From positions 1-34,176 of the forward strand of contig BEIA01000011.1 in NCBI GenBank assembly GCA_002898715.1: a stretch of 34,176 nt of DNA, read 5' to 3'. This stretch comes from a bacterium HR24. Lineage in GTDB: Bacteria > Chloroflexota > Dehalococcoidia > SM23-28-2 > HRBIN24. A program made the translations under genes and the position numbers. The notes under the pieces were generated by a model. That model was not told where the DNA came from. It saw nothing but the letters and a program-made list of their open reading frames with translations, and did no database searches. This document shows positions 806-16,033 of the stretch, piece after piece. Position 1 is the first letter of the stretch. Every line of letters starts with the position of its first letter.

Positions 806-1672
806 CTAGGGCACGTCCTGACCCGACAGGTAGTGCCTGAGGGCCTCCTGCCAGGGACGCAAGGGGCACAGGCCGAGCTCGCCCAGCCTGGAGCTCTCCA
901 GCGCCGAGAAGCGAGGGCGACGCGCCCTCCCGGGGAAATGGTCCGAGGTAACGGGGTGCACCTCCACCGCCATGCCCTTGAACCGGAAGATGGCGCAGGC
1001 GAACTCGTACCACGAGCACCAGCCGCCGTTGACGATATGATACGTGCCGCGGCCACCCGCCTCCACCACCGCCCACAGGCCCCAGGCCAGGTCGGCCGTC
1101 CAGGTGGGCGACAGGGCCTGGTCGGTCACCACCCACACCTCGCCCTGCTCCCTGCCCAGGCGCAGCATGGTGTGCACGAAGTTGCCACCTTTGACGCTGG
1201 AGCCCCTGCGCCCGTAAAGGCCCGACGTCCGCACGATGATGTGCTCGGGCCAGAGCGCCCGCAGGAATAACTCCCCCGCCACCTTGGAAATGCCGTAGGC
1301 GTTGAGCGGCGACACGGGATCTGCCTCCACGTAGGGCAAGCCCTTCTCGCCGTCGAACACGTAATCGGTGCTGATGTGCACCAGCAGCGCTTCCAGCTCT
1401 CGGCAAATCAGGGCCAGATGGCGCACGGCTAAAGCGTTGACGGCGAAGGCCCGCTCCGGCTCCTCCTCGCACCGCTCCACGTGGTGGAAAGAGGCGCAGT
1501 TGACCACAATTGACGGCCTCAACTCGCCCAGGACGCGGGCAACGTCCTCGTGCCGGCAGATGTCCAGGTCCCGACGGGCCAGGGGGAAGTGGCGCACGCC
1601 GCGCTCCGACAGCAGGCGGCAGAGATCGGAGCCCAGTTGCCCTGCGGCACCCAGAACGACTACGGGCCCCAT
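806..1672 (-). CDS. rfbD: dTDP-4-dehydrorhamnose reductase (RmlD/RfbD family)
   Basis: This 288-residue short-chain dehydrogenase would reduce dTDP-4-dehydro-L-rhamnose (or a related keto-deoxysugar) with NAD(P)H, the last step of dTDP-sugar synthesis. The Rossmann motif GAAGQLG is at residues 8-14, the family-typical STDYVFDG at 101-108, and the catalytic YxxxK pair at Tyr126/Lys130 (YGISK). The length matches the family (about 290). The ATG at 1672 lies 4 nt after the stop of the upstream epimerase, and the RmlC-like gene follows 14 nt downstream, so this is an operon. rmlA and rmlB are not in the window, so whether L-rhamnose itself is the product is not shown. It could equally reduce another 4-keto sugar. 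Confidence 0.85.
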   Translation of the reverse strand: MGPVVVLGAAGQLGSDLCRLLSERGVRHFPLARRDLDICRHEDVARVLGELRPSIVVNCASFHHVERCEEEPERAFAVNALAVRHLALICRELEALLVHISTDYVFDGEKGLPYVEADPVSPLNAYGISKVAGELFLRALWPEHIIVRTSGLYGRRGSSVKGGNFVHTMLRLGREQGEVWVVTDQALSPTWTADLAWGLWAVVEAGGRGTYHIVNGGWCSWYEFACAIFRFKGMAVEVHPVTSDHFPGRARRPRFSALESSRLGELGLCPLRPWQEALRHYLSGQDVP

Positions 1673-1676
1673 GCCC

Positions 1677-2696
1677 CTAGCGGCCCCCTTCGCTGGGGCC
1701 CAGGGCGCGGACGACGGCCCAGGGCGTCCGGCCCTCGGCCAGGAAGCGCTTCATGCCTTCGACGTTGTAGTAGCGCGGGTCATCGAAGTCCTCGATGCCC
1801 GCGTCGCGGATGCGGGCCACCAGCTCCAGCACCGTGTCGCGCATGGCGCGCTGGGGGCGAAAGCCTAGCACCTCCCGCGCCCTGGCCGAGGAGACCCGGT
1901 AGCTGCGCACGTCGGGCCGCCGCTCGACCTCTACCCGCGCCGGGACACCCGCCTCTGCCAGCGCCGAAGCGACCTCCTCGGCCAGCCTGGGCAGGCGGTA
2001 GTTTTCCGCTGCCACGTTGAACACCCCTGTCACATCCAGGGGCGCTTCCAGGGCCAGCATGTAGGCACGGGCTGCGTCCCTGACGTCCAGCAGCGGTCGC
2101 CAGATGTCGGGGTTGAAGACCACCACGCGCCCCTGGGAGAGAGCGGTCTTCACCATGGTGTTTACCACCAGGTCGAAGCGCAGCCGCGGGCTCCAGCCCA
2201 CGATGGTCCCGAAGCGCAACACGATGGGCCGGAAGGCCTCGTCCTCCAGGCAGAGGAGGCTGCGTTCGCCCATGAGCTTGGATACGGCGTAAGGGAAGGT
2301 GGGGCGGGCGTCGGTCGTCTCGTCGGCCTCGCCCTGGGGCGAGAACCCATACACAGAGCAGGTAGAGGAAAAGACGAAGCGCCGCACCCCGGCCTCGCGG
2401 GCGGCCTGCGCGACGATGGCGGTGCCCGCTGCGTTGAGCACGTAGTTCAGCGGCGGGCTGAAGGCGGCCATCGGATCGTTGGACAGGCCGGCCAGGTGGA
2501 TCACAGCGTCCACGCCCTCCAGCCACTCGGGGCGGAAGTCGATGATGTCACCCTCGATCAGTTCCGCCCTCGCGTCCACGTGCTCCAGGCCGAACATCCC
2601 CCAGTCAACCACCCGCACCTGGTAGCCGTGGTCGAGCAGGAGAGGCACCAGGACCGAGCCCACATAGCCAGCGCCGCCGGTGACGAGGACGCGCAA
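1677..2696 (-). CDS. NAD-dependent nucleotide-sugar epimerase/dehydratase (extended SDR)
   Basis: This 339-residue extended short-chain dehydrogenase has the GGAGYVGS nucleotide-binding motif at residues 7-14, SSTCSVYG at 110-117 and the catalytic Tyr136-x3-Lys140 (YAVSK). These are features of UDP-glucose 4-epimerase and dTDP-glucose dehydratase relatives. The conserved Thr/Ser before the catalytic tyrosine is present (SSTCS). Such enzymes act on nucleotide sugars in the cytoplasm. The substrate cannot be assigned, but the two following genes (RmlD-like and RmlC-like) point to a deoxysugar pathway. It is the first gene of the operon and is preceded by a strong sigma70-type promoter at 2784-2812. 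The start chosen is the ATG at 2696, after the SD-like stretch AGGAGGCAAGGTTTGCGC. Confidence 0.8.
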   Translation of the reverse strand: MRVLVTGGAGYVGSVLVPLLLDHGYQVRVVDWGMFGLEHVDARAELIEGDIIDFRPEWLEGVDAVIHLAGLSNDPMAAFSPPLNYVLNAAGTAIVAQAAREAGVRRFVFSSTCSVYGFSPQGEADETTDARPTFPYAVSKLMGERSLLCLEDEAFRPIVLRFGTIVGWSPRLRFDLVVNTMVKTALSQGRVVVFNPDIWRPLLDVRDAARAYMLALEAPLDVTGVFNVAAENYRLPRLAEEVASALAEAGVPARVEVERRPDVRSYRVSSARAREVLGFRPQRAMRDTVLELVARIRDAGIEDFDDPRYYNVEGMKRFLAEGRTPWAVVRALGPSEGGR

Positions 2697-2783
2697 ACCT
2701 TGCCTCCTGGAGTCCCGTCGCTGATCTGCCCGGACGGCGGTCGGGGGTCCGCTCGCCGCGGCAGTAGTGGTCGGCCTCTGCCC

Positions 2784-2812
2784 ATCTTAGGGGCAGGCAG
2801 GGGGTGGGTCAA
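2784..2812 (-). promoter_or_regulatory. Sigma70-type promoter of the sugar-nucleotide operon
   Basis: Read on the minus strand this is TTGACC (2807-2812), a 17-bp spacer, then TAAGAT (2784-2789). It gives a transcript of about 80 nt leader before the SDR gene at 2696. The match to the housekeeping consensus is 5 of 6 at -35 and 4 of 6 at -10, with ideal spacing. Confidence 0.75.
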
Positions 2813-2872
2813 CGTGGGGCCGGTGGGGCGTATCTGGGCGCTGGGACCTGCCGGCACCTCTGCCGCGGCGGA

Positions 2873-3694
2873 CTAGTCGAGCCCAGGGATATCCACGTTG
2901 TGGGACACGGAGTGCACCTCCAGGCGCAGCCAGGGGCCGGCCTCGTCGAGCCACCGTACCGATAGCCGCGACGGCGCCCGGACTCCGCGGAACGTCCCCC
3001 AGGCCTGGAACTCGACCCGCCACGGCGCCTTGGCCGAGTCGTTCGGCCGTCGGTAGCGGAGCGCCTCGACAGCGGTGGGCAGCCCCGACTCGGCATCGAA
3101 AGCGAATTCCAGCCGGTCATGGCCCTCAGGGGAGGGTACGATGAGGGCGGCCTTCCCCTGTCCCACATCCTGCCAGCGCACTCGCGGGTCGGTCACGAAA
3201 ACGGCGGGTAGCCAGACCATCTCGCCCCACAAGGCGACGTTAGCGGCCGAGTCTACCTGCCGCGAATCGGCCACGGTGCCGAAGGGGAGCTCGAGCCGGG
3301 CGTGGCCTTGTCGGAACTGTTCGTGTGCCCGGAGCAGCCGACGCCCCCACAACACGACCTCCATCTCGTGACGATAGGCCTGGCCGGCCAGGAGTGAATA
3401 ACGAAAGCGTAGCGGCAACCAGACGGGGCCGATGCGAATCCGGCCCACGCCACACACCACAGCCGACGTCTGCCTCGGCGACGGGTCGGGCAAGACTCCC
3501 CGCAAGTAACGCAGGACAGGGACGGGGAGATCGCCCGGCAGCGGCACCGTCCCCATGTCGCGAGAAGGCCCCACGGGGGCGGGGAAGGGGGTGGGCCGCC
3601 GCAAGCCCGACCATGCCAGGCCCAGCCCGACCCCTGCGAGCCCGCCCACGGCGAAGACGATCCTGAGGCGCTGACCCCTTCCGCCCGACGGCAT
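2873..3694 (-). CDS. DUF6544-like protein with one N-terminal membrane segment
   Basis: This 273-residue protein has a short basic N-terminus and one hydrophobic helix (about residues 10-27, IVFAVGGLAGVGLGLAW), so it is probably anchored with the rest outside the membrane. The body has VLRYLRGVLPDPSP, a Trp/Arg-rich beta-sheet pattern, and GEMVWLPAVFV near the middle. From memory these resemble the DUF6544/DUF6920 family; no enzymatic role is established for that family. There is no good ribosome binding site before the ATG at 3694, and a promoter-like -10 ends 8 nt upstream, which suggests a leaderless mRNA. The gene stands alone between the sugar operon and the divergent nitrogen cluster. 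Function is unknown. Confidence 0.65.
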   Translation of the reverse strand: MPSGGRGQRLRIVFAVGGLAGVGLGLAWSGLRRPTPFPAPVGPSRDMGTVPLPGDLPVPVLRYLRGVLPDPSPRQTSAVVCGVGRIRIGPVWLPLRFRYSLLAGQAYRHEMEVVLWGRRLLRAHEQFRQGHARLELPFGTVADSRQVDSAANVALWGEMVWLPAVFVTDPRVRWQDVGQGKAALIVPSPEGHDRLEFAFDAESGLPTAVEALRYRRPNDSAKAPWRVEFQAWGTFRGVRAPSRLSVRWLDEAGPWLRLEVHSVSHNVDIPGLD

Positions 3695-3701
3695 CGGTCA
3701 T

Positions 3702-3731
3702 AGTCTAGACTGCGCCGGCGGCCGGCGCCAA
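3702..3731 (-). promoter_or_regulatory. Promoter of the DUF6544-like gene with a palindrome in its spacer
   Basis: On the minus strand the order is TTGGCG (3726-3731), an 18-bp spacer, then TAGACT (3702-3707), with the start codon at 3694. Initiation 7-8 nt after the -10 would fall at or next to the ATG, giving a leaderless transcript. A perfect 7-bp inverted repeat (GCGCCGG / CCGGCGC, 3712-3728) fills most of the spacer and could be an operator. Confidence 0.5.
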
Positions 3732-3904
3732 GACGGTTCGTCTGCGGGTCTGCTGTCGTTCCTCGCCACCGGGCAGGTCTCCTTCCTGCCCACGGTTCGC
3801 TCCCGCAGCGCGAGATGGCACGCCGGCCGCCTTGGTCGCCACGTCCGGGTCGACATGGATAACGGGCCGCGCCGGCGGCCCTGGCCCTCGGCAGGAAGCA
3901 GGGG

Positions 3905-3910
3905 TATACT
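3905..3910 (+). promoter_or_regulatory. Candidate -10 element of glnR
   Basis: TATACT at 3905-3910 lies 25 nt before the glnR start codon. No good -35 hexamer is visible at 16-19 bp upstream, so the promoter is weak or activator-dependent. The AAGGAG ribosome binding site (3928-3933) sits only 2 nt before the ATG, which is unusually close. Confidence 0.4.
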
Positions 3911-3935
3911 TGTTTGAACCTGGCGAGAAGGAGCT

Positions 3936-4622
3936 ATGGCCTCCCCTTTTCAAGTGCTCATCGTCTCCCGCGATCAGGGGCCCATGCAGGCCCTGGCCGA
4001 GGCCCTACGGCCCGAAGGCTTCGTTGCCGCAGTCGTACCGCCCGAGGGCCAGGGCCTCGAGGAGGCCCTGGCCGCCTCCCCCGACGTGGTCGTCCTCGAC
4101 CTCCCCAGCCTGGGCGAGGGCTTCGACCTGGCCTCATTCCTCGCCGCCCGCGCCAGCCGCACGGAAACAGCCTTCCTGGCTCTCCTCTCCCCCGACCAGC
4201 TGACAGCCCTCGACCCTACCATCGGCCTGGACGACTTCGCCCTGCGCACGGCCACTGCCGCCGAGATCACGGCCCGTATTCGCCAGGCGCTGTGGCGCAA
4301 GGCGCGGGTCGACGCCCGGCACCTGCTCCGCCAGGGCGACCTGGTCATAGACCTGGCGAGCTATAGGGTCTTCGTGGGCGGCCGGCCTGTCCACCTGACC
4401 TACAAGGAATACGAGCTGCTGCGCTTCCTGGCCGCCAACCCGGGGCGGGTCTTCAGCCGCGAGGAGCTGCTGAACAAGGTCTGGGGATACGAGTTCTACG
4501 GCGGCACCCGCACCGTGGACGTGCACGTGCGACGTCTGCGGGCCAAGCTGGAGACCGGCCACCGCACCTACATCGAGACGGTCCGCAACGTCGGCTACCG
4601 CTTTCGGCCTGCGGCCGAGTAG
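3936..4622 (+). CDS. glnR: GlnR-type OmpR-family nitrogen regulator with degenerate receiver
   Basis: This 228-residue protein has an N-terminal receiver-like domain (1-120) and a C-terminal OmpR/PhoB winged helix (about 132-226). The receiver keeps the phospho-site Asp55 (VVVLD) but lacks the acidic pair (Ser11-Arg12 instead of Asp-Asp) and has Arg104-Thr in place of the Lys-Pro motif, so ordinary histidine-kinase phosphorylation is unlikely. Actinobacterial GlnR is atypical in the same way. The DNA-binding half is strikingly GlnR-like: WGYEFYGGTRTVDVHVRRLR and TVRNVGYRF. The receiver also has GLDD where I recall GIDD in Streptomyces GlnR. It lies directly upstream of amt, glnK and two glnA genes, and four 11-bp-spaced GTAAC half-sites begin 3 nt after its stop. 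It is very probably the transcription factor of this nitrogen cluster. No kinase gene adjoins it. Confidence 0.85.
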   Translation: MASPFQVLIVSRDQGPMQALAEALRPEGFVAAVVPPEGQGLEEALAASPDVVVLDLPSLGEGFDLASFLAARASRTETAFLALLSPDQLTALDPTIGLDDFALRTATAAEITARIRQALWRKARVDARHLLRQGDLVIDLASYRVFVGGRPVHLTYKEYELLRFLAANPGRVFSREELLNKVWGYEFYGGTRTVDVHVRRLRAKLETGHRTYIETVRNVGYRFRPAAE

Positions 4623-4625
4623 CGC

Positions 4626-4663
4626 GTAACGGACCTGTAACATCCTGGTAATAGCCTCGTAAC
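4626..4663 (+). promoter_or_regulatory. Four-half-site GlnR-type operator upstream of amt
   Basis: GTAAC occurs at 4626-4630, 4637-4641 and 4659-4663, with GTAAT at 4648-4652. Each is exactly 11 bp from the next (5-bp half-site plus 6-bp spacer). This is the arrangement described for actinobacterial GlnR boxes (gTnAc-n6-GaAAC). Four half-sites would hold two dimers on one face of the helix. A possible -10 (TTTACT, 4685-4690) starts 21 bp after the last half-site and no proper -35 is seen, as expected for an activated promoter. Confidence 0.8.
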
Positions 4664-4722
4664 CCTCATTGGGCCGCCCTCCCCTTTACTGGCATGTGAA
4701 CACAGTAACAGGAGGGTGTGCC

Positions 4723-6502
<1,780 letters not shown>

Positions 6503-6516
6503 CGGCGCTCACCAAC

Positions 6517-6571
6517 GTAACATGAAGTTAACACCCGCCCGGGCCACCGTTGGCCCGGGCGGGCCTACAAT
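6517..6571 (+). promoter_or_regulatory. Promoter of glnA (beta type) with two-half-site GlnR box
   Basis: GTAAC (6517-6521), six bases, then TTAAC (6528-6532) repeat the 11-bp spacing seen before amt. An excellent -10 (TACAAT, 6566-6571) follows, but there is no -35 hexamer at the right distance. The box is centred near -53 relative to a start near 6578, a position suited to activation. Confidence 0.65.
6534..6563 (+). repeat. 13-bp perfect inverted repeat between glnK and glnA
   Basis: CCCGCCCGGGCCA (6534-6546) and TGGCCCGGGCGGG (6551-6563) are perfect complements around a CCGT loop. The repeat has no T-run, so it is at best a weak terminator for amt-glnK. It covers the -35 region of the glnA promoter and ends 2 bp before its -10, so it may be an operator or a DNA-structure element. 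Confidence 0.7.
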
Positions 6572-6617
6572 GATTGGCGAGGCCCCAGCAAGAGAGCCTG
6601 ACAGGAGGTAGAAGGCC

Positions 6618-8078
6618 TTGAGCCCCGAGGAACTGCGCGACCTGCAGCAGGCGGTGGAGCGCGTAAACCAGCTTATCCGCCAGCACAATGTCCAGATCGT
6701 CGACCTGCGCTTCAACGACCTGCCTGGCCTCTGGCAGCACTTCTCCATCCCCGTCGCCGAGCTGACGGAGATGGACGACATCGTCACCAGCATCTGGGTG
6801 GACGGCATCGGCTTCGACGGGTCTTCCATCCGTGGCTTCCAGAAGATCCAGGAATCGGACATGATCCTGCTCCCCGACCCGTCCACCGCGCGCATCGATC
6901 CCATCTGCCAGCACCCCACCCTGTCCATCATCTGCGACGTCTACGACCCCCTTACCAAGGAGCCCTACACGCGCGACCCGCGCCATATCGCCAAGAAGGC
7001 GGAAGAGTTCCTGCGCAAGAGCGGCGTGGGCGACATTTCCTACTGGGGCCCCGAGTGCGAGTTCTTCATCTTCGACGACGTCCGCTTCGACCAGGGGGAG
7101 AACTACGGCTTCTATCACGTGGACTCCATCGAGGGCGAGTGGAACTCGGGCCGCGAGGAGCGCCCCAACCTGGGCTACAAGCCCCGCTTCAAGGAAGGCT
7201 ACTTCCCCGTGCCCCCGCACGACTCCCTGCAGGACATCCGCAGCGAGATGATCCTGACCATGAGCAGCATCGGCATTCCGGTGGAGGTGCACCACCACGA
7301 GGTGGCCACGGGCGGCCAGTGCGAGATCGACATGAAGTTCGACTCGCTGGTGAACATGGCCGACAAGGTCATGTGGTACAAGTACCTGGTCAAGAACATC
7401 GCCCGCAAGTACAACAAGGTGGCCACCTTCATGCCCAAGCCCCTCTTCGGCGACAACGGCTCGGGCATGCACACCCACCAGAGCCTGTGGAAGAACGGCC
7501 AGAACCTGTTCTACGACCCCGAGGGCTATGCCCTTATCAGCAAGCTCTGCCGGTACTACATCGGCGGGCTGCTCAAGCATGCCCGGGCACTCATGGCCTT
7601 CTGCGCCCCCACCACCAATTCTTACAAGCGGCTGACCCCGGGCTACGAGGCGCCGGTGAACCTGGTCTACTCCGCCCGCAACCGCTCGGCGGCGGTCCGC
7701 ATACCCGTCTATTCCACTAACCCCAAGAGCAAGCGCATCGAGTTCCGTCCGCCCGATGGCTCCTGCAACCCCTACCTGGCCTTCGCCGCTATGCTCATGG
7801 CCGGCCTGGACGGCATCGAGAACGAGATCGACCCGGGCCCGCCCCTGGACAAAAACAGCTACGAGCTCTTGCCCGCCGAGGAGGCGGCCATCCCCAAGGT
7901 GCCGGGCAGCCTGGAGGAGGCGCTGCAGGCCCTGGAGGAAGACCACGAGTTCCTGCTGCGGGGCGGCGTCTTCACCAGCGATGTGCTGGAGGTGTGGGTG
8001 GAGTACAAGCGGCAAGAGATCGATCAGGTGCGCCTGCGGCCGCATCCCTGGGAGTTCCACCTCTACTTCGACGTCTGA
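6618..8078 (+). CDS. glnA: Glutamine synthetase, type GSI-beta
   Basis: This 486-residue enzyme makes glutamine from glutamate, ammonia and ATP in the cytoplasm as a dodecamer. Active-site segments are [33 protein letters not shown] and [17 protein letters not shown]. The tyrosine modified by adenylyltransferase in enteric enzymes is retained: Tyr415 in [12 protein letters not shown]. The protein also has the roughly 25-residue insertion of the beta subtype (around [18 protein letters not shown]). Both place it in the GSI-beta group, controllable by adenylylation, although no glnE or glnD is in the window. The start is TTG at 6618, supported by AGGAGGT (6603-6609) with an 8-nt spacer. It has its own promoter with a GlnR-type box and ends at a terminator at 8109-8141. 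Confidence 0.95.
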
Positions 8079-8108
8079 GGGCCGGCCCGGCGTCCTGACG
8101 ACGCTAGG

Positions 8109-8141
8109 GGGGCCGGAGGCCTTGGGGCCCCGGCCCCTTTT
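8109..8141 (+). terminator. Intrinsic terminator of the first glnA
   Basis: GGGGCCGG (8109-8116) pairs with CCGGCCCC (8130-8137), with a further GGCC/GGCC pairing possible in the loop, followed by TTTT (8138-8141). It lies 30 bp after the glnA stop and overlaps the -35 of the next promoter. Confidence 0.7.
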
Positions 8142-8151
8142 GCCTTACAAT
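8122..8151 (+). promoter_or_regulatory. Promoter of the second glnA, overlapping the terminator
   Basis: TTGGGG (8122-8127), an 18-bp spacer, then TACAAT (8146-8151). The -35 is inside the terminator hairpin of the preceding glnA. No GTAAC half-site is visible nearby, unlike the first glnA. Confidence 0.6.
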
Positions 8152-8171
8152 CGCCAGGGAGGTCGATGGGG

Positions 8172-9521
8172 ATGCTGGAACGGGACGAGGCCCGCGAGTA
8201 CGTGCTGGAGATGGCCCGCCAGCACGACGTCAAGTTCGTGCGCCTCTGGTTCACCGACATCCTGGGCCAGCTCAAGAGCATCAACATCACCGTCGAGGAG
8301 CTGCCCGAGGCCCTGGAGGATGGCGTCAGCTTCGACGGCTCATCGATCGAGGGCTTCGCCAGGGCCGACGAGTCGGACATGATCGCCATGCCCGACCCGA
8401 CCACCTTCGCCCTCTTGCCCTGGCGCCCCCAGCAGAAGCGTGTTGCCCGCCTCTTCTGCGATGTGCTCCTGCCCAGCGGCGAGCCCTTCGAGGGCGACCC
8501 CCGTTACGTACTGAAGCGTAACCTCAAGCGGGCCGCCGACCTGGGCTACACCTTCTACGTGGGGCCGGAGCTGGAGTTCTTCTACTTCCAGGGGCCCGAC
8601 GCCCCCAATGTACTGGACCGCGGCGGCTACTTCGACCTCACGCCCCTGGACGAGGCCACCGACCTGCGGCGCGATACGGTGCTGATGCTGGAGGAGATGG
8701 GCATCGCCGTGGAGCACAGCCACCACGAGGGCGCCCCCAGCCAGCACGAGATCGACCTCCACTACGCCGATGCCCTCACCATGGCCGATTCGGTCATGAC
8801 CGCCCGCCTGGTGGTCAAGGAAGTGGCCATGAAGCACGGTGTGTATGCCACCTTCATGCCCAAGCCCCTGTCCGACGAGAACGGCTCGGGCATGCACATC
8901 AACCAGTCGCTCTTCCGGGGGGAGCGCAACGCCTTCTACGACCCCAATGACCCGCAAAGGCTCTCGGCGGTGGCCAGGGCATACATTGGCGGCCTGCTGC
9001 GCCACGCGCCCGAGATCACCCTCGTTACCAACCAGTGGGTCAACTCGTACAAGCGGCTGGTGCGGGGCAGCGGGCCCCTGGGCTTCGAGGCGCCGGTCTA
9101 CGTCTCCTGGTCCTTCCGCAACCGGGCCGACCTGATCCGGGTGCCGGAGGTGAAGGCGGGCAAGGAGCAGGCGGTGCGCATCGAGTACCGCGCCCCCGAC
9201 CCGGCCTGCAACCCTTACCTGGCCTTCGCCGCCATGTTGGCCGCCGGCCTGGAAGGCATCGAGAGGGAGTACCCTTGCCCTGCGCCCGCCGACAAGAGCG
9301 TCTACGAAATGACGGACGAGGAGCGCGAGGAACGGGGCATCACCCACCTGCCCGGCTCCCTGTGGGAAGCCATTCAGCTTGCCGAGCGCTCCCAACTGCT
9401 GCGCCGCTGTCTGGGCGAGCACGTCTTCCACACCCTCGTGCAGAACAAGAAGATCGAATGGGGCGAGTACCGTCGTCAGGTCACCGATTACGAGGTGCGC
9501 CGCTACCTGCCCATCCTGTAG
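8172..9521 (+). CDS. glnA: Glutamine synthetase, type GSI-alpha
   Basis: This 449-residue glutamine synthetase has the same catalytic segments as its neighbour (GPELEFFYF, NGSGMHINQSL, VNSYKRLVRGSGPLGFEAP, RIEYRAPDPACNPYLAF) but lacks the 25-residue insertion. Its C-terminal part reads VYEMTDEEREERGITHLPGS, like the GSI-alpha enzymes of Firmicutes and Archaea, which are regulated by feedback rather than adenylylation. It is therefore a distinct paralogue, not a recent duplicate. There are two in-frame ATGs, at 8166 and 8172. GGAGGT (8158-8163) is only 2 nt from the first but 8 nt from the second, so I start at 8172 (MLERDEAREY). It follows the first glnA by 93 nt with its own promoter. A role as a GlnA-like enzyme for another amine is possible, but the active site looks complete. 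Confidence 0.92.
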   Translation: MLERDEAREYVLEMARQHDVKFVRLWFTDILGQLKSINITVEELPEALEDGVSFDGSSIEGFARADESDMIAMPDPTTFALLPWRPQQKRVARLFCDVLLPSGEPFEGDPRYVLKRNLKRAADLGYTFYVGPELEFFYFQGPDAPNVLDRGGYFDLTPLDEATDLRRDTVLMLEEMGIAVEHSHHEGAPSQHEIDLHYADALTMADSVMTARLVVKEVAMKHGVYATFMPKPLSDENGSGMHINQSLFRGERNAFYDPNDPQRLSAVARAYIGGLLRHAPEITLVTNQWVNSYKRLVRGSGPLGFEAPVYVSWSFRNRADLIRVPEVKAGKEQAVRIEYRAPDPACNPYLAFAAMLAAGLEGIEREYPCPAPADKSVYEMTDEEREERGITHLPGSLWEAIQLAERSQLLRRCLGEHVFHTLVQNKKIEWGEYRRQVTDYEVRRYLPIL

Positions 9522-9540
9522 ACGGTAACGGGACGGGCAT

Positions 9541-9570
9541 CCCCCGCCTCTATTAATCGGGGGCTATAAT
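9541..9570 (+). promoter_or_regulatory. Hairpin fused to the promoter of the NarL-type regulator
   Basis: CCCCCG (9541-9546) pairs with CGGGGG (9558-9563) around an 11-nt AT-rich loop, and a consensus -10 TATAAT (9565-9570) begins one base later. No -35 hexamer is recognisable. A single GTAAC (9525-9529) lies 36 bp before the -10, but no second half-site follows at +11. The hairpin may end the glnA transcript, act as an operator, or both. Confidence 0.55.
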
Positions 9571-9602
9571 GTTGGGGCCGTACGGCCGGAGGTGAGGCCC
9601 AG

Positions 9603-10301
9603 GTGAGCCAAGAGGACAAGACGGGGACAGCCACTCGTCGCGCACGGCCCGTCAGCATCCTCATCGTCGATGACCACCCGGTAGTGCGCGAGGGCTTGCG
9701 GGCCCTGGTAAAGGCGCGCGACATCCAGGTGGTGGGCGAGGCAGCCGATGGCCAGGAGGCAGTGGAAATGGCCCGCCGCCTGCGGCCGGACGTGATCCTC
9801 ATGGACATCCGCCTGCCCGACATGGACGGCTTTGCCGCCACCGCCGCCATCAAGCAGGAGCTGCCCCGCACCGCTGTCATAATGGTCACCAGCTACGAGA
9901 GCCGGGAATACCTTGAGCGGGCCCTGGAGGTGGGCGCCTCCGGCTACGTGCTCAAGGGCATGCCCCGCGAGGCCTACCTGGAGGCTATCCGCACCGTCCG
10001 CGCCGGCGGCTCCATAATCGAGGCCGGCCTCCTCGCGCAGCTCGTGCGCCAGCACCAGCCCCAGGCCGAGCCCGCCGACCAGGTGGCCCAGGCGGTGGCC
10101 TCCCTGTCACCACGAGAACGTGAGGTGCTCCGGCTCATCGCCCGCGGCCTGACCAACAAGGAGATCGCCCAGCAGATCCATTACAGCCTGGGGACCGTAA
10201 AGAACGTCGTGCGCCGCATCATCGACAAGCTGGGCGTCTCCGACCGCACGCAGGCGGCAGTACTCGCTGCTCGCGCCGGCCTCACCGAGGACGAAGAGTG
10301 A
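9603..10301 (+). CDS. NarL/LuxR-family response regulator
   Basis: This 232-residue protein has a complete receiver domain (about 17-135) and a LuxR-type helix-turn-helix (about 167-226). The phosphorylation residues are all present: Asp23-Asp24, Asp68 (ILMDIR), Thr96 and Lys118. The output domain reads SPREREVLRLIARGLTNKEI and then GTVKNVVRRIIDKL. It should therefore respond to a histidine kinase, but none is encoded in the window. The GTG start at 9603 has GGAGGT (9588-9593) 9 nt before it. It has its own TATAAT promoter directly after the second glnA, so a link to nitrogen status is possible but rests only on position. A hairpin (CTGTCC/GGACAG) follows the stop. Confidence 0.9.
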   Translation: MSQEDKTGTATRRARPVSILIVDDHPVVREGLRALVKARDIQVVGEAADGQEAVEMARRLRPDVILMDIRLPDMDGFAATAAIKQELPRTAVIMVTSYESREYLERALEVGASGYVLKGMPREAYLEAIRTVRAGGSIIEAGLLAQLVRQHQPQAEPADQVAQAVASLSPREREVLRLIARGLTNKEIAQQIHYSLGTVKNVVRRIIDKLGVSDRTQAAVLAARAGLTEDEE

Positions 10302-10542
10302 GACCTGTCCGCCTGGACAGCGCAGATAGCCGTCATGGTGTCCATACGGAGCATCCTTTGGCCTTCAGGCCAATCACTCGTCGGGGCCACTGTCCGCTGG
10401 TAGCTGATATGATTGCCCTCCCGGTGCCGTCGCTTCTGGCCGGAAGATAGTATCCCTCTCTTGCCAGCCCGGCCTAGCCTTTAGGCATGGGCAGGGGTGT
10501 CCTCAGGAGACCCTGCAGGCCCATGAGGGAGGGGGAACCCAT
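10302..10542. other. Intergenic region before the sigma factor gene
   Basis: 241 bp with no credible gene on either strand. It contains a 6-bp hairpin right after the regulator stop (CTGTCC 10305-10310 / GGACAG 10315-10320, no T-run) and a 7-bp inverted repeat TTGGCCT/AGGCCAA (10358-10373). A possible -10 (TATGAT, 10408-10413) lacks a -35. The promoter of the sigma factor cannot be fixed with confidence. Confidence 0.4.
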
Positions 10543-11082
10543 ATGGAACAACCTAACGCCTTTTCGGACGCCTTTCAGGCGTTCTACCCGCGCATCTTCA
10601 GTTTCATCCTCGCCCGCACGCGCGACCAGCACGTGGCCGAGGACCTGACGGCCGAGGCCTTCGTCCGTGCCTATCGCTACTGGGACCGCCTGCGGCACGA
10701 GGAAGCCCTGGCCAGCTGGCTGTTCCGCATCGCCAAGAACCTGGTGGCCAGCCACCGCCGGCGGACACGCACCCTGGAACGCGCCCTGGACAGAGCTGCC
10801 CACCTCCCTCAGGACGGGAACGGCACCCTCCCCGACCCCGAAGAGGTAGTGCTGCATAAGGAAGACCTGGCGCGGCTGAAGCGGCTCCTGTCCCGCCTCT
10901 CCCCCCGCGAGCAGGAGGTGCTCTCGCTGCGCTTCGAGTGGGGCATGGACAGTCGGCAGATAGGGGAACTGCTGGGCCTTTCCGACGTGCACGTACGGGT
11001 CATCATCTACCGCGCACTGGGCCGGTTGCGGCGCGGCTTCGAAACGGAACAGGCTGCCAAGAAGGCGGTGGCCGTCAGCTAG
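10543..11082 (+). CDS. RNA polymerase sigma factor, sigma-70 ECF-like
   Basis: This 179-residue protein has sigma region 2 at about residues 10-75 (FYPRIFSFILARTRDQHVAEDLTAEAFVRAY, with WLFRIAKNLVASHRRR) and region 4 at about 112-168 (LSRLSPREQEVLSLRFEWGMDSRQIGELLG and VIIYRALGRLRRG). Regions 1 and 3 are missing, which is typical of extracytoplasmic-function sigma factors. The ATG at 10543 is preceded by a purine-rich GAGGGAGGGGG 7 nt upstream. Such sigma factors are normally held by an anti-sigma factor encoded next to them, but here the next gene is nuoN on the opposite strand with only 4 bp between the two stops. Its regulon and signal are therefore unknown. Confidence 0.88.
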   Translation: MEQPNAFSDAFQAFYPRIFSFILARTRDQHVAEDLTAEAFVRAYRYWDRLRHEEALASWLFRIAKNLVASHRRRTRTLERALDRAAHLPQDGNGTLPDPEEVVLHKEDLARLKRLLSRLSPREQEVLSLRFEWGMDSRQIGELLGLSDVHVRVIIYRALGRLRRGFETEQAAKKAVAVS

Positions 11083-11086
11083 GGCC

Positions 11087-12559
11087 TCAGCGGCCAGCCA
11101 CCAGGGCCGTACCCAGCTCGCGGTAGACCAGAGAGGCAGCGTCCTCGGCCGCCTCCATCAGGGGCAGCGGGGCGAGGCCCACCAGGAAGATCCCCACCAG
11201 CAGCGCCGCCACCGCTGCATACTCCAGCCACGGCGTGGAGAAGCGTCCAGGCTCCTCGGGCTCTCCCAGGTACATCTGCTTCATCACCATCAGGTAGTAG
11301 TACAGGGATATGAAGCTGGTGAGGACGCCCACCCCGGCCAGCCACAGGAACCCTTCCTCGGCGATGGCCTGGAAGAGCACGAACTTGGTCACGAAGCCGG
11401 CGAACAGCGGCATCCCTGCCAGGGAAAACAGGGAGGCCGCCATGGCCAGGGCGAGGAACGGCGCCCGCTCCGCCAGGCCCCGGTAGTCGTAGATGTCCTC
11501 TTTGCCCGTCCAGTTGTAGTAGACGATGGCGCAGGCGAATGCCGCCAGGTTGCTGATGACGTAGCCGGCCAGGTGGAAGAGGATGGCGGTGGCCGCATCC
11601 GGACGGTCGGGGGAGAGCGCCACCACCCCCGCCAGTATGTACCCCACCTGTCCGATGCTGGAGTAGGCCAGCAGCCGCTTGATATTGCGCTGCTGCAGGG
11701 CCACCAGGTTACCCAGCAGCATGGTCGCCGCAGCCAGGCCTGCCAGAAGCGGCTGCCAGTCATCGGCCAGGGGCATGAGGCCGCGCACGAACAGCTTGAT
11801 GAACAGGGCGAACCCCGCCGCCTTGGACAGGGCCGAGATGAGGGCCGTCACCGGCAGGGGAGCCCCCTCGTAGGCGTCGGGCGTCCACATGTGGAAGGGC
11901 ACCGCCGCTACCTTGAAGCCCAGCCCGGCTACCAGCAGCACCAGCCCCAGCAGCACCGCCGACCGCGCCCCCTCCAGGTCTCCGCTCAGCGCCTCGCGGA
12001 TCCCGTCGTACTGGGTGGTCTTAGTGGCGGCATATATCATGCTGAGGCCGTACAGCAAGATGGCGGAAGAGAAGGCGCCCAGCAGCATATACTTCAGGCC
12101 GCCCTCGTTGGAGCGGATCTCGTTGCGGGCGAAGGAGGCCAGCACGTACAGGCTGAAGCTGGATAGCTCCAGGGCGATGTAGGCCGAGAGGAGCTCCTGG
12201 GCCGCCGCCATGTAGGTGGCGCCCAGGGCAGAGAGAAGCACCAGTCCGTAGTACTCGCCGGCGTTCTTCAGCCTCTCGCCCACGTAGCGGGCGGAGACCA
12301 GGCACACAGTGAAGGCGATGCCGTGGAAAAGGAGCCGGAAGAAGGTAGTGTAGTTGTCCACCTCTAGCAGGTTGCCGAAGGCAGCGTCGTCGTTCAGCCA
12401 GATCAGGGACGTACCGGCGGCAGCCAGTGCGCCCGCCGCCCCCAGATAGCCCAGCCATGTCTTGGGCAGCCTGGGGAAGAAGGTGCCCACCAGCACCAGC
12501 ATTGCGGCCCAGCCAGCCAGGACGTATTCCGGCGCCAGAAGCGACCAGTCCAGCCTCAT
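11087..12559 (-). CDS. nuoN: NADH-quinone oxidoreductase subunit N
   Basis: This 490-residue, roughly 14-helix membrane protein is one of the three antiporter-like proton-pumping subunits of complex I. It shows the family pattern, including KMLLLGAF-type sequence (LKYMLLGAFSSAILLYGLSM), PFHMWTPDAYEGAPLPVTA and LLAYSSIGQVGYILAG. Start: the ATG at 12559 overlaps the nuoM stop as ATGA. The frame can be read further upstream, but those residues overlap nuoM in another frame. It is the last gene of the nuo operon and converges on the sigma factor gene with a 4-bp gap and no visible terminator. Confidence 0.95.
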   Translation of the reverse strand: MRLDWSLLAPEYVLAGWAAMLVLVGTFFPRLPKTWLGYLGAAGALAAAGTSLIWLNDDAAFGNLLEVDNYTTFFRLLFHGIAFTVCLVSARYVGERLKNAGEYYGLVLLSALGATYMAAAQELLSAYIALELSSFSLYVLASFARNEIRSNEGGLKYMLLGAFSSAILLYGLSMIYAATKTTQYDGIREALSGDLEGARSAVLLGLVLLVAGLGFKVAAVPFHMWTPDAYEGAPLPVTALISALSKAAGFALFIKLFVRGLMPLADDWQPLLAGLAAATMLLGNLVALQQRNIKRLLAYSSIGQVGYILAGVVALSPDRPDAATAILFHLAGYVISNLAAFACAIVYYNWTGKEDIYDYRGLAERAPFLALAMAASLFSLAGMPLFAGFVTKFVLFQAIAEEGFLWLAGVGVLTSFISLYYYLMVMKQMYLGEPEEPGRFSTPWLEYAAVAALLVGIFLVGLAPLPLMEAAEDAASLVYRELGTALVAGR

Positions 12560-14127
12560 TGCGAGATCCCCGGCAGGTTCTTCACCGATGCAGCGATGCG
12601 CTCCAGGAAGGGAAACGGCCACATGCCGGCAAAGGCCAGGAAGAACACCAGCACCGCCCCGCCGAACTGCTCACCGGGCCTCATCTCCTTCAGGAAGTTC
12701 CAGCGCTCGTTGAACGGCCCGAAGTAGGCCCGTGCCAGCATCCGCAGGATGTAGGTGGCCGTGATGGCCGCCGCCAGGATGCCCAGGGCTCCCGCCCATG
12801 GATACCCGGCCCTGAACACGCCCACGAAGATGAGGAGCTCGGCCACGAACCCGGCCAGCCCGGGCAGACCCAGGGAAGACAGCCCCGCTGCCGCCCAGTA
12901 GGCGGCGTGGCGCGGCATCCTCTGGGCCAGGCCACCGAAGATGGTCATGTCGCGCACATGCGCCTGGTCGTACAGCGCCCCCACGTTGGTGAACATCAGG
13001 GCGGTCATCACCCCGTGGGCGAACATCTGCAGCACCGCCCCGTTGATGCCGATCTCGTGCATGCTGGCCAGGCCCATGATCACGTAGCCCATGTGGCTGA
13101 CGCTGGAATAGCCCACCATGTACTTCAGGTCGGTCTGGGCAAGGGCCGACACGGCGCCGTAAAGGGCGCCGGTCACCCCCAACGTCATCATCACTGGCGC
13201 CCAGAAGTGAGCGCCCTCGGGCATCAGGGCCATACCCACCCGCAAGATGCCGAAGGCCCCCAGCTTCATCAGCACCCCGGCATGGAGCATGCTCACTGCC
13301 GTCGGCGCCGCCACGTGCCCATCGGGCGACCAGGTGTGGAAGGGCCACAGGCCCGCCAGCACCCCGAACCCGAGCATGAAGAACGGGAAGAAGATCTTCT
13401 GGAAGGTCTCGTCGTAGGCCACCGCCTGCAGGGCCGGCAGGTCGAAGGTGCCGAGCCCCGCCTCCACGAAGGTAGCGAAGATGCCTATGAAGATGAGCAC
13501 GCTGCCCGCCACCAGGTACAGCACCAGCTTCAGCGCCCCGTACTCCTTGGTACGGACGAAGTTGCCAAAGTTGGTGCTAGCCCCCCAGATGGCGATGAGG
13601 AAGTACATGGGCAGCACCGCCACCTCGTACCAGAAGAAGAACCAGAACAGGTCCAGGCTGGCGAAGACGCCGTAGACCCCCGACACCAGCAGGAACAGCA
13701 GCACGAAATAGTCCTTGTTCCGGTAGTCGATGTTCCAGGAGATGAACACGCCCGTGAAAATGACGATGCCCGTGAGCAGGATCAGCGGCGCCGTGATGCC
13801 ATCCACCGCCAGGTGGAAGCTGATTCCCCTGTCGCCCAGGAAGGCCACGTCCCGCAGCCAGTCCAGGCGCAGGTCGTACCGGTAACCGCCGTCCTCGAAC
13901 TGATAGGCGACGAAGATGGCGAGGGAGAGGGCGAAGAGCGCCGTCCCCGACAAGAGGCACAGGTACCGCACCAGGTACCGGCCCGACAGTGGCAGCCGGT
14001 CCGGCAGCGGCCCCAGCTTGGGCACCGGCAGGTACCGCACCTGCTCGTCGTGGCGGTAGGGAATGAGCATGAGCAGCAGGCAGGTGCCCACCGGCACAGC
14101 TATGGTGGCGAAAACGGCCCACTCCAT
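12556..14127 (-). CDS. nuoM: NADH-quinone oxidoreductase subunit M
   Basis: This 523-residue membrane subunit of complex I pumps protons. Recognisable segments are FFFWYEVAVLPMYFLIAIWG, with the conserved helix-5 glutamate, FHTWSPDGHVAAPTAVSMLHAGVLMKLGAFG (in the H-T-W-x-P-D family style) and LKYMVGYSSVSHMGYV. Length is as expected (about 500-520). The gene starts 4 nt after the nuoL stop and its stop overlaps the nuoN start. Confidence 0.95.
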   Translation of the reverse strand: MEWAVFATIAVPVGTCLLLMLIPYRHDEQVRYLPVPKLGPLPDRLPLSGRYLVRYLCLLSGTALFALSLAIFVAYQFEDGGYRYDLRLDWLRDVAFLGDRGISFHLAVDGITAPLILLTGIVIFTGVFISWNIDYRNKDYFVLLFLLVSGVYGVFASLDLFWFFFWYEVAVLPMYFLIAIWGASTNFGNFVRTKEYGALKLVLYLVAGSVLIFIGIFATFVEAGLGTFDLPALQAVAYDETFQKIFFPFFMLGFGVLAGLWPFHTWSPDGHVAAPTAVSMLHAGVLMKLGAFGILRVGMALMPEGAHFWAPVMMTLGVTGALYGAVSALAQTDLKYMVGYSSVSHMGYVIMGLASMHEIGINGAVLQMFAHGVMTALMFTNVGALYDQAHVRDMTIFGGLAQRMPRHAAYWAAAGLSSLGLPGLAGFVAELLIFVGVFRAGYPWAGALGILAAAITATYILRMLARAYFGPFNERWNFLKEMRPGEQFGGAVLVFFLAFAGMWPFPFLERIAASVKNLPGISQ

Positions 14128-14131
14128 ATCG

Positions 14132-16033
14132 CTAGACCCTCACGGCCAGAAGGACAGCCGCCGCGATGAGCGCACCGGCCGCTATGGCCAGGGCATAGTT
14201 GGGCAGGCGTCCCGTCTGCAAGAACTTGAGCTCGAAGCCGGTGAAGAAGGCCAGCCCCGCCGTCCCGTCCACCCCCGTGTCGTTGACCACCACCCGGTCG
14301 AACCAGGCGATCACCCGTCCCAGGGCCAGGACGATACGGTCGATGACCCACTGGTACGCCTCGTCGACGTAGTACTTGTGCCAGAGGAGCTGATAGATGG
14401 GGCGGAAGCGCTCGCCCAGCACCCGGGCCGGCCGCGCCTCTCCCCACCAGGCCCAGCCTGCCACCGCCAGCCCTACCACTACCGACACGATGGAGGCCAC
14501 AGCTATGGCCGATGGGAACTTCAGCTCCTCCGGCTCCTCGAAGAACACGAACTTGCCGATGCTCCCCGGGAAGCCCAGCGCCTCGCCCACGGCGTCGAAC
14601 GTCCAGAAGCCCGCCACCACCGATATGGCCGCCAGCACCAGCACCGGCAGCAGCATGTTCGGCGGCGCCTCATGGGCGTGCTCGTAGGCGTGATGGTCCC
14701 GTGGCCGGCCGGTGAAAGTGAGGATGTACAGCCGCCCCATGTAAACGGCGCTCAGGAAGGCGCTGAAGGCCACCAGGGCCGTCACCAAGGCGTTCTGATG
14801 GGTGCTGACCCCGTGCAGGATGGCGTCCTTGGCCCAGAACCCCGAGAAGGGGATGAGCGCGGCCATGGAGAGGGCCCCTACGCCGAAGGCAGCCGCCGTC
14901 TGGGGCATCTTCGCCGCCAGACCGCCGAGCTGGGTCACCTCCTGCCGGTCGGTGCCGTGGATGACGTTGCCCGCGGCCATAAACAGCAGCGCCTTGAAGA
15001 ACCCATGCACGAACAGGTAGAACATGGCCGCCGTTACGTCCCGCGAGCCCAGGGCCACCATCATCAGGCCCAGGCTGTTGAGGGTCGAGTAGGCCACCAC
15101 CCGCTTGATGTCCGTGGCCACGAGGCCCATCGTGGCCGACATGAGGATGGTCACCAGGGCCAGGGACGTCACCACGTTGAGGGCTATCGGGTCGGCCAGG
15201 TCGAACAGGGGCATGGTCCGGGCCACCATGTACACCCCAGCCACCACCATGGTGGCGGCGTGGATGAGCGCCGAGACCGGTGTGGGCCCCTCCATGGCGT
15301 CGGGGAGCCAGACGTGCAGCGGGAACTGGGCCGACTTGCCCACCGCCCCGGCGAAGAGCAGCAGCACCGCCAGGGTCAGGTACTCTCGGCTGTAGCCTCC
15401 CGCCTCGGCAAACTCGAATATCTCGCGAATGTTGAAGGTCCCCGCTTCCCGCCAGAGCAGCACTATACCGATAAGGAACCCCACATCACCGATGCGGGTG
15501 GTGATGAACGCCTTCTTGGCCGCCTCGGCTGCCGAGCGCCGCTCGTGCCAGAATCCGATCAGCAAGTAGGAGCAGAAGCCGACCCCTTCCCAGGCGGCGT
15601 ACAGCAGCAGAAGGTTGTCGGCCAGCACCAGCGTGACCATGGAGGCCACGAACAGGCTCATGGCGGCGAAGAACCAGCCGTAGCGGGGGTCACCCTTCAT
15701 GTAGCCCGTCGAGTAGATGAAGATCAGCGTCCCCACGAAGGTGACCACCGCCAGCATCACCGCCGCCAGCTGGTCGAACAGGAAGCCCAGCGTCACATGG
15801 AAGGTGCCGAAGCGCAGCCAGTCGATACCCGAGGACACCCCCTCGAAGTGGCCCTCGTCCAGCGCCCCCAGCAGGTCTGCCAGCATGAAGGCGAAGAGCA
15901 CGAAGCTGGCTGCCACCGCGCCGATGGCCAGCCAGTCGCCCCGTCGGGGCAGGTACGGGCCCAGCAGCAGCAGCACCACGAAGGCCCCGAAGGGCAGCGT
16001 CGGCAGGAGCCAGGCGTGCTCCATCCCTACCAT
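14132..16033 (-). CDS. nuoL: NADH-quinone oxidoreductase subunit L
   Basis: This 633-residue subunit is the distal antiporter-like proton pump of complex I, with the long C-terminal part that in other species forms the lateral helix along the membrane arm. Seen are AAWEGVGFCSYLLIGFW, with the conserved glutamate, SAQFPLHVWLPDAMEGPTPVSALIHAATMVVAG and VVAYSTLNSLGLMM. The ATG at 16033 overlaps the end of nuoK; a second ATG three codons later (16024) is an alternative start. No degradation or fusion is visible. Confidence 0.95.
   Translation of the reverse strand: MVGMEHAWLLPTLPFGAFVVLLLLGPYLPRRGDWLAIGAVAASFVLFAFMLADLLGALDEGHFEGVSSGIDWLRFGTFHVTLGFLFDQLAAVMLAVVTFVGTLIFIYSTGYMKGDPRYGWFFAAMSLFVASMVTLVLADNLLLLYAAWEGVGFCSYLLIGFWHERRSAAEAAKKAFITTRIGDVGFLIGIVLLWREAGTFNIREIFEFAEAGGYSREYLTLAVLLLFAGAVGKSAQFPLHVWLPDAMEGPTPVSALIHAATMVVAGVYMVARTMPLFDLADPIALNVVTSLALVTILMSATMGLVATDIKRVVAYSTLNSLGLMMVALGSRDVTAAMFYLFVHGFFKALLFMAAGNVIHGTDRQEVTQLGGLAAKMPQTAAAFGVGALSMAALIPFSGFWAKDAILHGVSTHQNALVTALVAFSAFLSAVYMGRLYILTFTGRPRDHHAYEHAHEAPPNMLLPVLVLAAISVVAGFWTFDAVGEALGFPGSIGKFVFFEEPEELKFPSAIAVASIVSVVVGLAVAGWAWWGEARPARVLGERFRPIYQLLWHKYYVDEAYQWVIDRIVLALGRVIAWFDRVVVNDTGVDGTAGLAFFTGFELKFLQTGRLPNYALAIAAGALIAAAVLLAVRV

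Follow-up and report, generated by a model that had tools for sequence, protein, structure and literature searches.

The window, the whole stretch of 34,176 nucleotides analysed here, encodes a cluster of nitrogen genes on the plus strand, in which a gene for an OmpR-family regulator (glnR) is followed by genes for an ammonium transporter (amt), a PII signal protein (glnK/glnB) and two glutamine synthetases (Table 1). The regulator is an orphan: no histidine kinase gene neighbours glnR, which has amt on its 3' side and a minus-strand frame on its 5' side (2873-3694, 273 aa; judged by eye to be too short and to have no visible kinase motif). Past the glnR stop codon (TAG, 4620-4622) stand four half-sites, all on the plus strand and in exact 11-bp phase, the first starting 3 nt after the stop. 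The letters, positions and spacing of these half-sites, and their distance from the end of an OmpR-family gene, are exactly as given in the original prediction. An additional GTAAC at 4705 is out of phase and adjoins a ribosome site, and was excluded from the half-site count. Directly past the two glutamine synthetase genes the window also encodes a response regulator of the NarL type, whose receiver gives a canonical match (9603-10301).

Table 1. Genes and sequence elements of the glnR-amt-glnK-glnA cluster in the window.
Feature	Position	Strand	Evidence
TATACT, probable -10 of glnR promoter	3905..3910	+	sequence
glnR, 228 aa, OmpR-family orphan regulator, receiver degenerate	3936..4622	+	homology, domains, trees, residues
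Half-site 1, GTAAC	4626..4630	+	sequence, shuffles
Half-site 2, GTAAC	4637..4641	+	sequence, shuffles
Half-site 3, GTAAT	4648..4652	+	sequence, shuffles
Half-site 4, GTAAC, adjoins -35 position of amt promoter	4659..4663	+	sequence, order alignment
TTTACT, probable -10 of amt promoter, 21 nt past last half-site	4685..4690	+	A/T peak at fixed distance in order
amt, ammonium transporter	4723..6126	+	family matches
glnK/glnB, PII signal protein	6161..6502	+	start by ribosome site; open frame from 6140
GTAAC-n6-TTAAC, candidate single GlnR box before glnA, in glnK-glnA gap	6517..6532	+	sequence
glnA, type I glutamine synthetase	6618..8078	+	family matches
Second glnA-type glutamine synthetase	8166..9521	+	family match

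The window comes from an assembly of 159 contigs (2.05 Mb, 92% complete). In an RpoB tree, the window's genome and its class join named Chloroflexota (Anaerolineae) with support of 100/99, apart from Bacillota, Bacteroidota and Pseudomonadota, so the earlier guess of a chloroflexotal host was right. Matches to reductive dehalogenases number 19-28 in single-contig genomes of 1.4-1.5 Mb from the same class and 0 in the window's genome. Given the known biology of Dehalococcoides, their abundance in same-class genomes indicates that the class is Dehalococcoidia.

Searched against proteins of solved structure, the window protein matches GlnR best (8hih, 1.7e-41; 8hig, 6.6e-41), with RegX3 and MtrA lower. 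An OmpR-type winged-helix C-terminal domain is present (Trans_reg_C, 106 bits), and comparison with the solved GlnR DNA-binding domain (8hig) gives 57% identity and 1.8 A. The Pfam model GlnR_1st is passed narrowly, at 27.3 bits against a curated cut-off of 27. This model matches 17 of the 21 orthologues (E<=0.01) and the generic receiver model just 2 of them; ten canonical control paralogues score at most 18.7 bits with GlnR_1st, below the cut-off, and more than 100 bits with the receiver model. Aligned to RegX3, the receiver of the window protein has Ser-Arg where the acidic pair would stand, Leu at the Thr/Ser position and Arg-Thr in place of Lys-Pro, which bears out the original description of a receiver without the acidic pair and Lys-Pro. 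The phospho-acceptor-type Asp is retained, and the Arg two residues past it is missing. Lacking, then, is the residue set of a canonical phosphorylatable receiver of the PhoB/RegX3/MtrA type. The predicted fold was discarded as evidence for GlnR, as PhoP, PrrA, KdpE and GlnR score alike against the PDB; the domain arrangement of the predicted structure is unsure (pTM 0.60). Also discarded was the profile score as proof of membership, as it runs up to 185 bits for canonical Bacillota regulators. Trees and residues took its place, and ten of these Bacillota regulators, which match the profile as strongly as actinobacterial GlnR does, were included in one tree.

A full-length tree unites the Dehalococcoidia regulators with actinobacterial GlnR against the canonical response regulators (100/99), and with the ten Bacillota regulators added, 38 atypical proteins are split from 48 canonical ones (100/100). 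Topology tests reject two alternatives: actinobacterial GlnR joined to RegX3/MtrA (p-AU 0.0055) and the Dehalococcoidia proteins joined to their own canonical paralogues (p 0.021). The union might instead be an artefact of long-branch attraction, in which case the window protein would be an OmpR regulator unrelated to GlnR whose receiver chemistry was lost in a separate event. Fast evolution puts degenerate receivers on long branches, and the branch of actinobacterial GlnR in the full-length tree has a length of 1.46. We consider such an artefact quite improbable, since two trees of the conserved DNA-binding domain alone, with the degenerate receiver removed, recover the same union (92/97 and 100/96.9), and since operators and target genes match as well. 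Because the domain is short, a topology that joins actinobacterial GlnR to the Bacillota regulators passes the test on it as well (p-AU 0.128).

A recognition-helix motif, GGxRTVDVH[VI]RR[LI]R[AS]K, is common to both groups (46/47 Dehalococcoidia proteins and 6/6 actinobacterial GlnR) and absent from the canonical regulators (0/51), which further argues against independent origins. The receiver residues are complete in each of the 51 canonical regulators. In the 47 Dehalococcoidia proteins, the acidic pair and Thr/Ser never occur and Lys occurs in eight; the six actinobacterial GlnR are likewise without the acidic pair and Thr/Ser. On these sequence comparisons, the window protein belongs with GlnR, as originally predicted, and apart from PhoB, RegX3 and MtrA. 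A review describes the Asp of the GlnR receiver as not phosphorylated and places Asp-50 and Arg-52 in a charge network of the phosphorylation-independent GlnR dimer (PMC10704036). The window protein does not have this Asp-50/Arg-52 pair. The receiver Asp is found in all six actinobacterial GlnR versus 30 of the 47 Dehalococcoidia proteins, and Arg at +2 from it in six of six versus 6 of 47. The network is a trait described for actinobacterial members and does not define the whole GlnR family. As the Arg is missing from most Dehalococcoidia proteins and the Asp is variable, the contacts and mechanics of the receiver may differ from those of actinobacterial GlnR.

The half-site array before amt was examined by scans with IUPAC patterns. 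GTAAY-n6-GTAAY occurs three times in the window, always within the array, and 0 times in 100 dinucleotide shuffles. At a period of 11, the glnR-amt gap attains a four-half-site score of 20/20, unmatched in 300 shuffles, and other periods score 11-13. The genome-wide scan suggested with the original prediction finds six GTAAY pairs in the 2.05-Mb assembly, versus one for the reversed-pattern control, and runs of at least three half-sites solely before the two amt genes, each of which belongs to an amt-glnK-glnA cluster. The three-half-site pattern KHAAY gives four overlapping matches in this genome, two in each of two arrays, and 0 for the control. The second cluster, amt2-glnK2-glnA, lies on contig C21 (L235, G000:C21:13000-18500, at 1647-5500) and has GTAAC-n6-GCAAC-n6-GTAAC-n6-GTAAT before amt2. 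This amt2 reads in two frames and may carry a frameshift. No half-site array surrounds the TATACT box in the sequence upstream of glnR, so that glnR is probably not autoregulated in the window.

The array and gene order recur throughout the order. We identified an orthologue of the window protein in 20 of 24 other genomes of the order (47-87% identity; the next-best regulators reach about 40% or less, except for one 48% fragment). Across the 21 order-level loci examined, window included, the gene directly 3' of glnR is amt in 20 and glnA in one. Retention of the 11-bp repeats before amt in related genomes had been set as a test beforehand, and at 19 of the 21 loci the gap holds a four-half-site array unmatched in 300 shuffles; the other two (L034, L035) keep just the last two half-sites. 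The consensus for the order is (G/T)TAAC, TT(A/C)A(C/T), GTAAY, GTAAY. None of the 21 loci departs from G in half-sites 3 and 4 or from AA in half-sites 1, 3 and 4. The array starts from 2 to more than 200 nt past the glnR stop, and despite this variable distance a -10-like T-A peak stands 22 nt past its end (14/21 each).

Beyond the order, a profile built from it matches clearly (roughly >=180 bits) in about 43 of some 53 sampled genomes of the same class, and matches in other Chloroflexota classes are weak. In the genomes of named relatives, the matches proved to be canonical paralogues (30-37% identity) and not orthologues. A search of Bacteroidota, run without a positive control, gave no match at E<=1e-45. 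The four-half-site pattern has about 60 sites in 294 class genomes versus 8 for the reversed control. Outside the order, the 30 array loci retrieved comprise 19 before amt, three before glutamine synthetase genes, two before glnR and six with no nitrogen gene nearby. The 27 class orthologues outside the order have amt (12) or glnA (3) within about 1.5 kb downstream, and about 12 have neither. Three genomes of one genus (G013, G015, G016; L164, L165, L166) keep four-half-site arrays, which in L164 and L165 stand before a GNAT acetyltransferase-like gene, a possible extra member of the regulon.

The array could also be read by another OmpR-family regulator, for example of the PhoB/PhoP type, with the neighbouring glnR a passenger. 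Boxes of that type are 11-bp direct repeats as well (TTAAC type), and the genome encodes several canonical OmpR paralogues. It also has TTAAC-n6-TTAAC before a gene for a pstS-like phosphate-binding protein (G000:C6:38265-38280; L059, L237), likely a PHO box built on similar lines, which makes it likely that a second regulator uses boxes of this kind. A different reader of the amt array is nevertheless highly unlikely in our view: arrays track glnR and amt class-wide, standing before amt, glnA and glnR, and half-sites 3 and 4 start with G in all 21 loci, unlike the pstS pair.

At the usual 17-nt spacing from the probable -10 element, the last half-site before amt would adjoin or slightly overlap the -35 hexamer. 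An array beside the -35 position gives the picture of an activator next to RNA polymerase. The same position might serve repression, in which the same regulator and operator would mask the -35 region and so shut off amt when ammonium is plentiful, and GlnR does repress some actinobacterial genes, ald in Amycolatopsis being an example (PMC4140684). Repression has little probability, as actinobacterial amt is activated by GlnR (PMC10704036, PMC5826061) and the array stands upstream of the promoter core, which suits an activator, and not over the start.

We conclude that a GlnR-type nitrogen-control circuit very probably operates in Dehalococcoidia (Chloroflexota), and its conservation outside Actinobacteria is well supported by anatomy and comparison. 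The complete GlnR circuit originally proposed stands as anatomy only, and DNA binding, a tetramer, activation rather than repression and the nitrogen signal are inferred. The receiver of the glnR product has lost phosphorylation chemistry and probably serves oligomerisation. Four protomers would line up head to tail, each taking one half-site and one 11-bp turn of the helix, and the last would lie beside the -35 position of the amt promoter and might contact RNA polymerase from there. The amt-glnK genes would be switched on when ammonium is scarce, as would glnA via its GTAAC-n6-TTAAC pair. In the reviewed actinobacterial system, four GlnR DNA-binding domains bind a four-site promoter head to tail and four receiver domains form a tetramer that bridges to RNA polymerase (PMC10704036). 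The four-site array of the window fits this arrangement, and the mechanism may carry over by analogy.

The likeness to GlnR of Actinobacteria (Streptomyces, Mycobacterium, Amycolatopsis and Saccharopolyspora; 8hih, 8hig, 4o1h) extends from the protein to its sites. Both groups have an OmpR-type DNA-binding domain with a matching recognition-helix motif, an orphan gene, a receiver without the acidic pair, Thr/Ser and usually Lys, the targets amt, glnK and glnA, and half-sites of 5 bp spaced at 11 bp, with tandem sets of four at strong promoters. In contrast to the actinobacterial system, that of Dehalococcoidia belongs to a different phylum, has the regulator gene directly 5' of its target, has a variable Asp with the following Arg mostly missing, and uses half-sites that lean to (G/T)TAAC rather than alternating gTnAc/GaAAc. 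PhoB, RegX3, MtrA and WalR-type regulators have the same fold, DNA-binding domain family and direct-repeat operators, but they have a canonical phosphorylatable receiver, stand apart in full-length trees and are without the GlnR recognition-helix motif. GlnR of Bacillota is an unrelated protein of the MerR family, with only the name and a nitrogen role in common.

Repeats of the gTnAc/GaAAc kind at 11-bp spacing stand before amt and glnA in the window, their letters varying as in published actinobacterial consensuses. The original prediction spoke of a simplified operator made up of GTAAC half-sites throughout. This is overstated, as relatives have TTAAC, GAAAC or GCAAC at some positions. It also does not hold as a novelty: Streptomyces venezuelae GlnR has GTnAC-n6-GTnAC in two tandem copies before amtB and glnA, nearly identical in half-site and spacing, although those promoters have a GAAAC b-site where all four in the window are GTAAC/GTAAT (PMC3087709). 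With the Mycobacterium smegmatis box t/gTAAC-n6-Gc/aAAC also published (PMC10704036), the operator of the window is of an ordinary GlnR type. Novelty, to judge from the open-access literature searched, lies in the presence and class-wide conservation of a GlnR system in Chloroflexota; a search of open-access PMC literature for a paper on GlnR in this phylum found none.

As gene pair and motifs recur through Dehalococcoidia, the circuit probably goes further back or reaches further than its description from Actinobacteria suggests, and may be ancient or transferred. A broader proposal, which we advance tentatively, is that GlnR may be an old nitrogen master regulator common to Chloroflexota and Actinomycetota, phosphorylation-free throughout, with Dehalococcoidia paralogues on other nitrogen operons, including the Dehalococcoides mod-nif cluster. 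GlnR has been described as the global nitrogen regulator of Actinomycetes. Dehalococcoidia, which include organohalide-respiring bacteria used in bioremediation, now gain a testable nitrogen-control circuit with predicted sites, and the question of how nitrogen is sensed by a receiver that lacks phosphorylation chemistry can be put to a second phylum.

GlnR-family genes were also seen in other nitrogen contexts. In other Dehalococcoidia, one adjoins glnA and a glutamate synthase gene (L196) and another a glutamate-synthase-like gene (L200). In another Chloroflexota class (L204, G048:C49:119000-135000, about 8300-9200), a GlnR-like protein with a degenerate receiver, of unsure place in the tree and on a long branch, is encoded 3' of genes that by eye look like those for a nitrate transporter, assimilatory nitrate reductase and nirB. 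A second, divergent GlnR-like gene (L203, G083:C1:1050000-1069000, 13645-14361, minus strand) occurs in a single-contig genome of 1,469,720 bp that we take to be probably Dehalococcoides mccartyi 195. It heads modABC-nifH-nifI1-nifI2-nifDKEN (3258-13435; genes recognised by eye) and is a candidate regulator of nitrogen fixation. GTAAT-n6-GTAAT-n6-GTAAT precedes this regulator gene, and GAAAT/GAAAC repeats with 11-bp spacing precede nifH.
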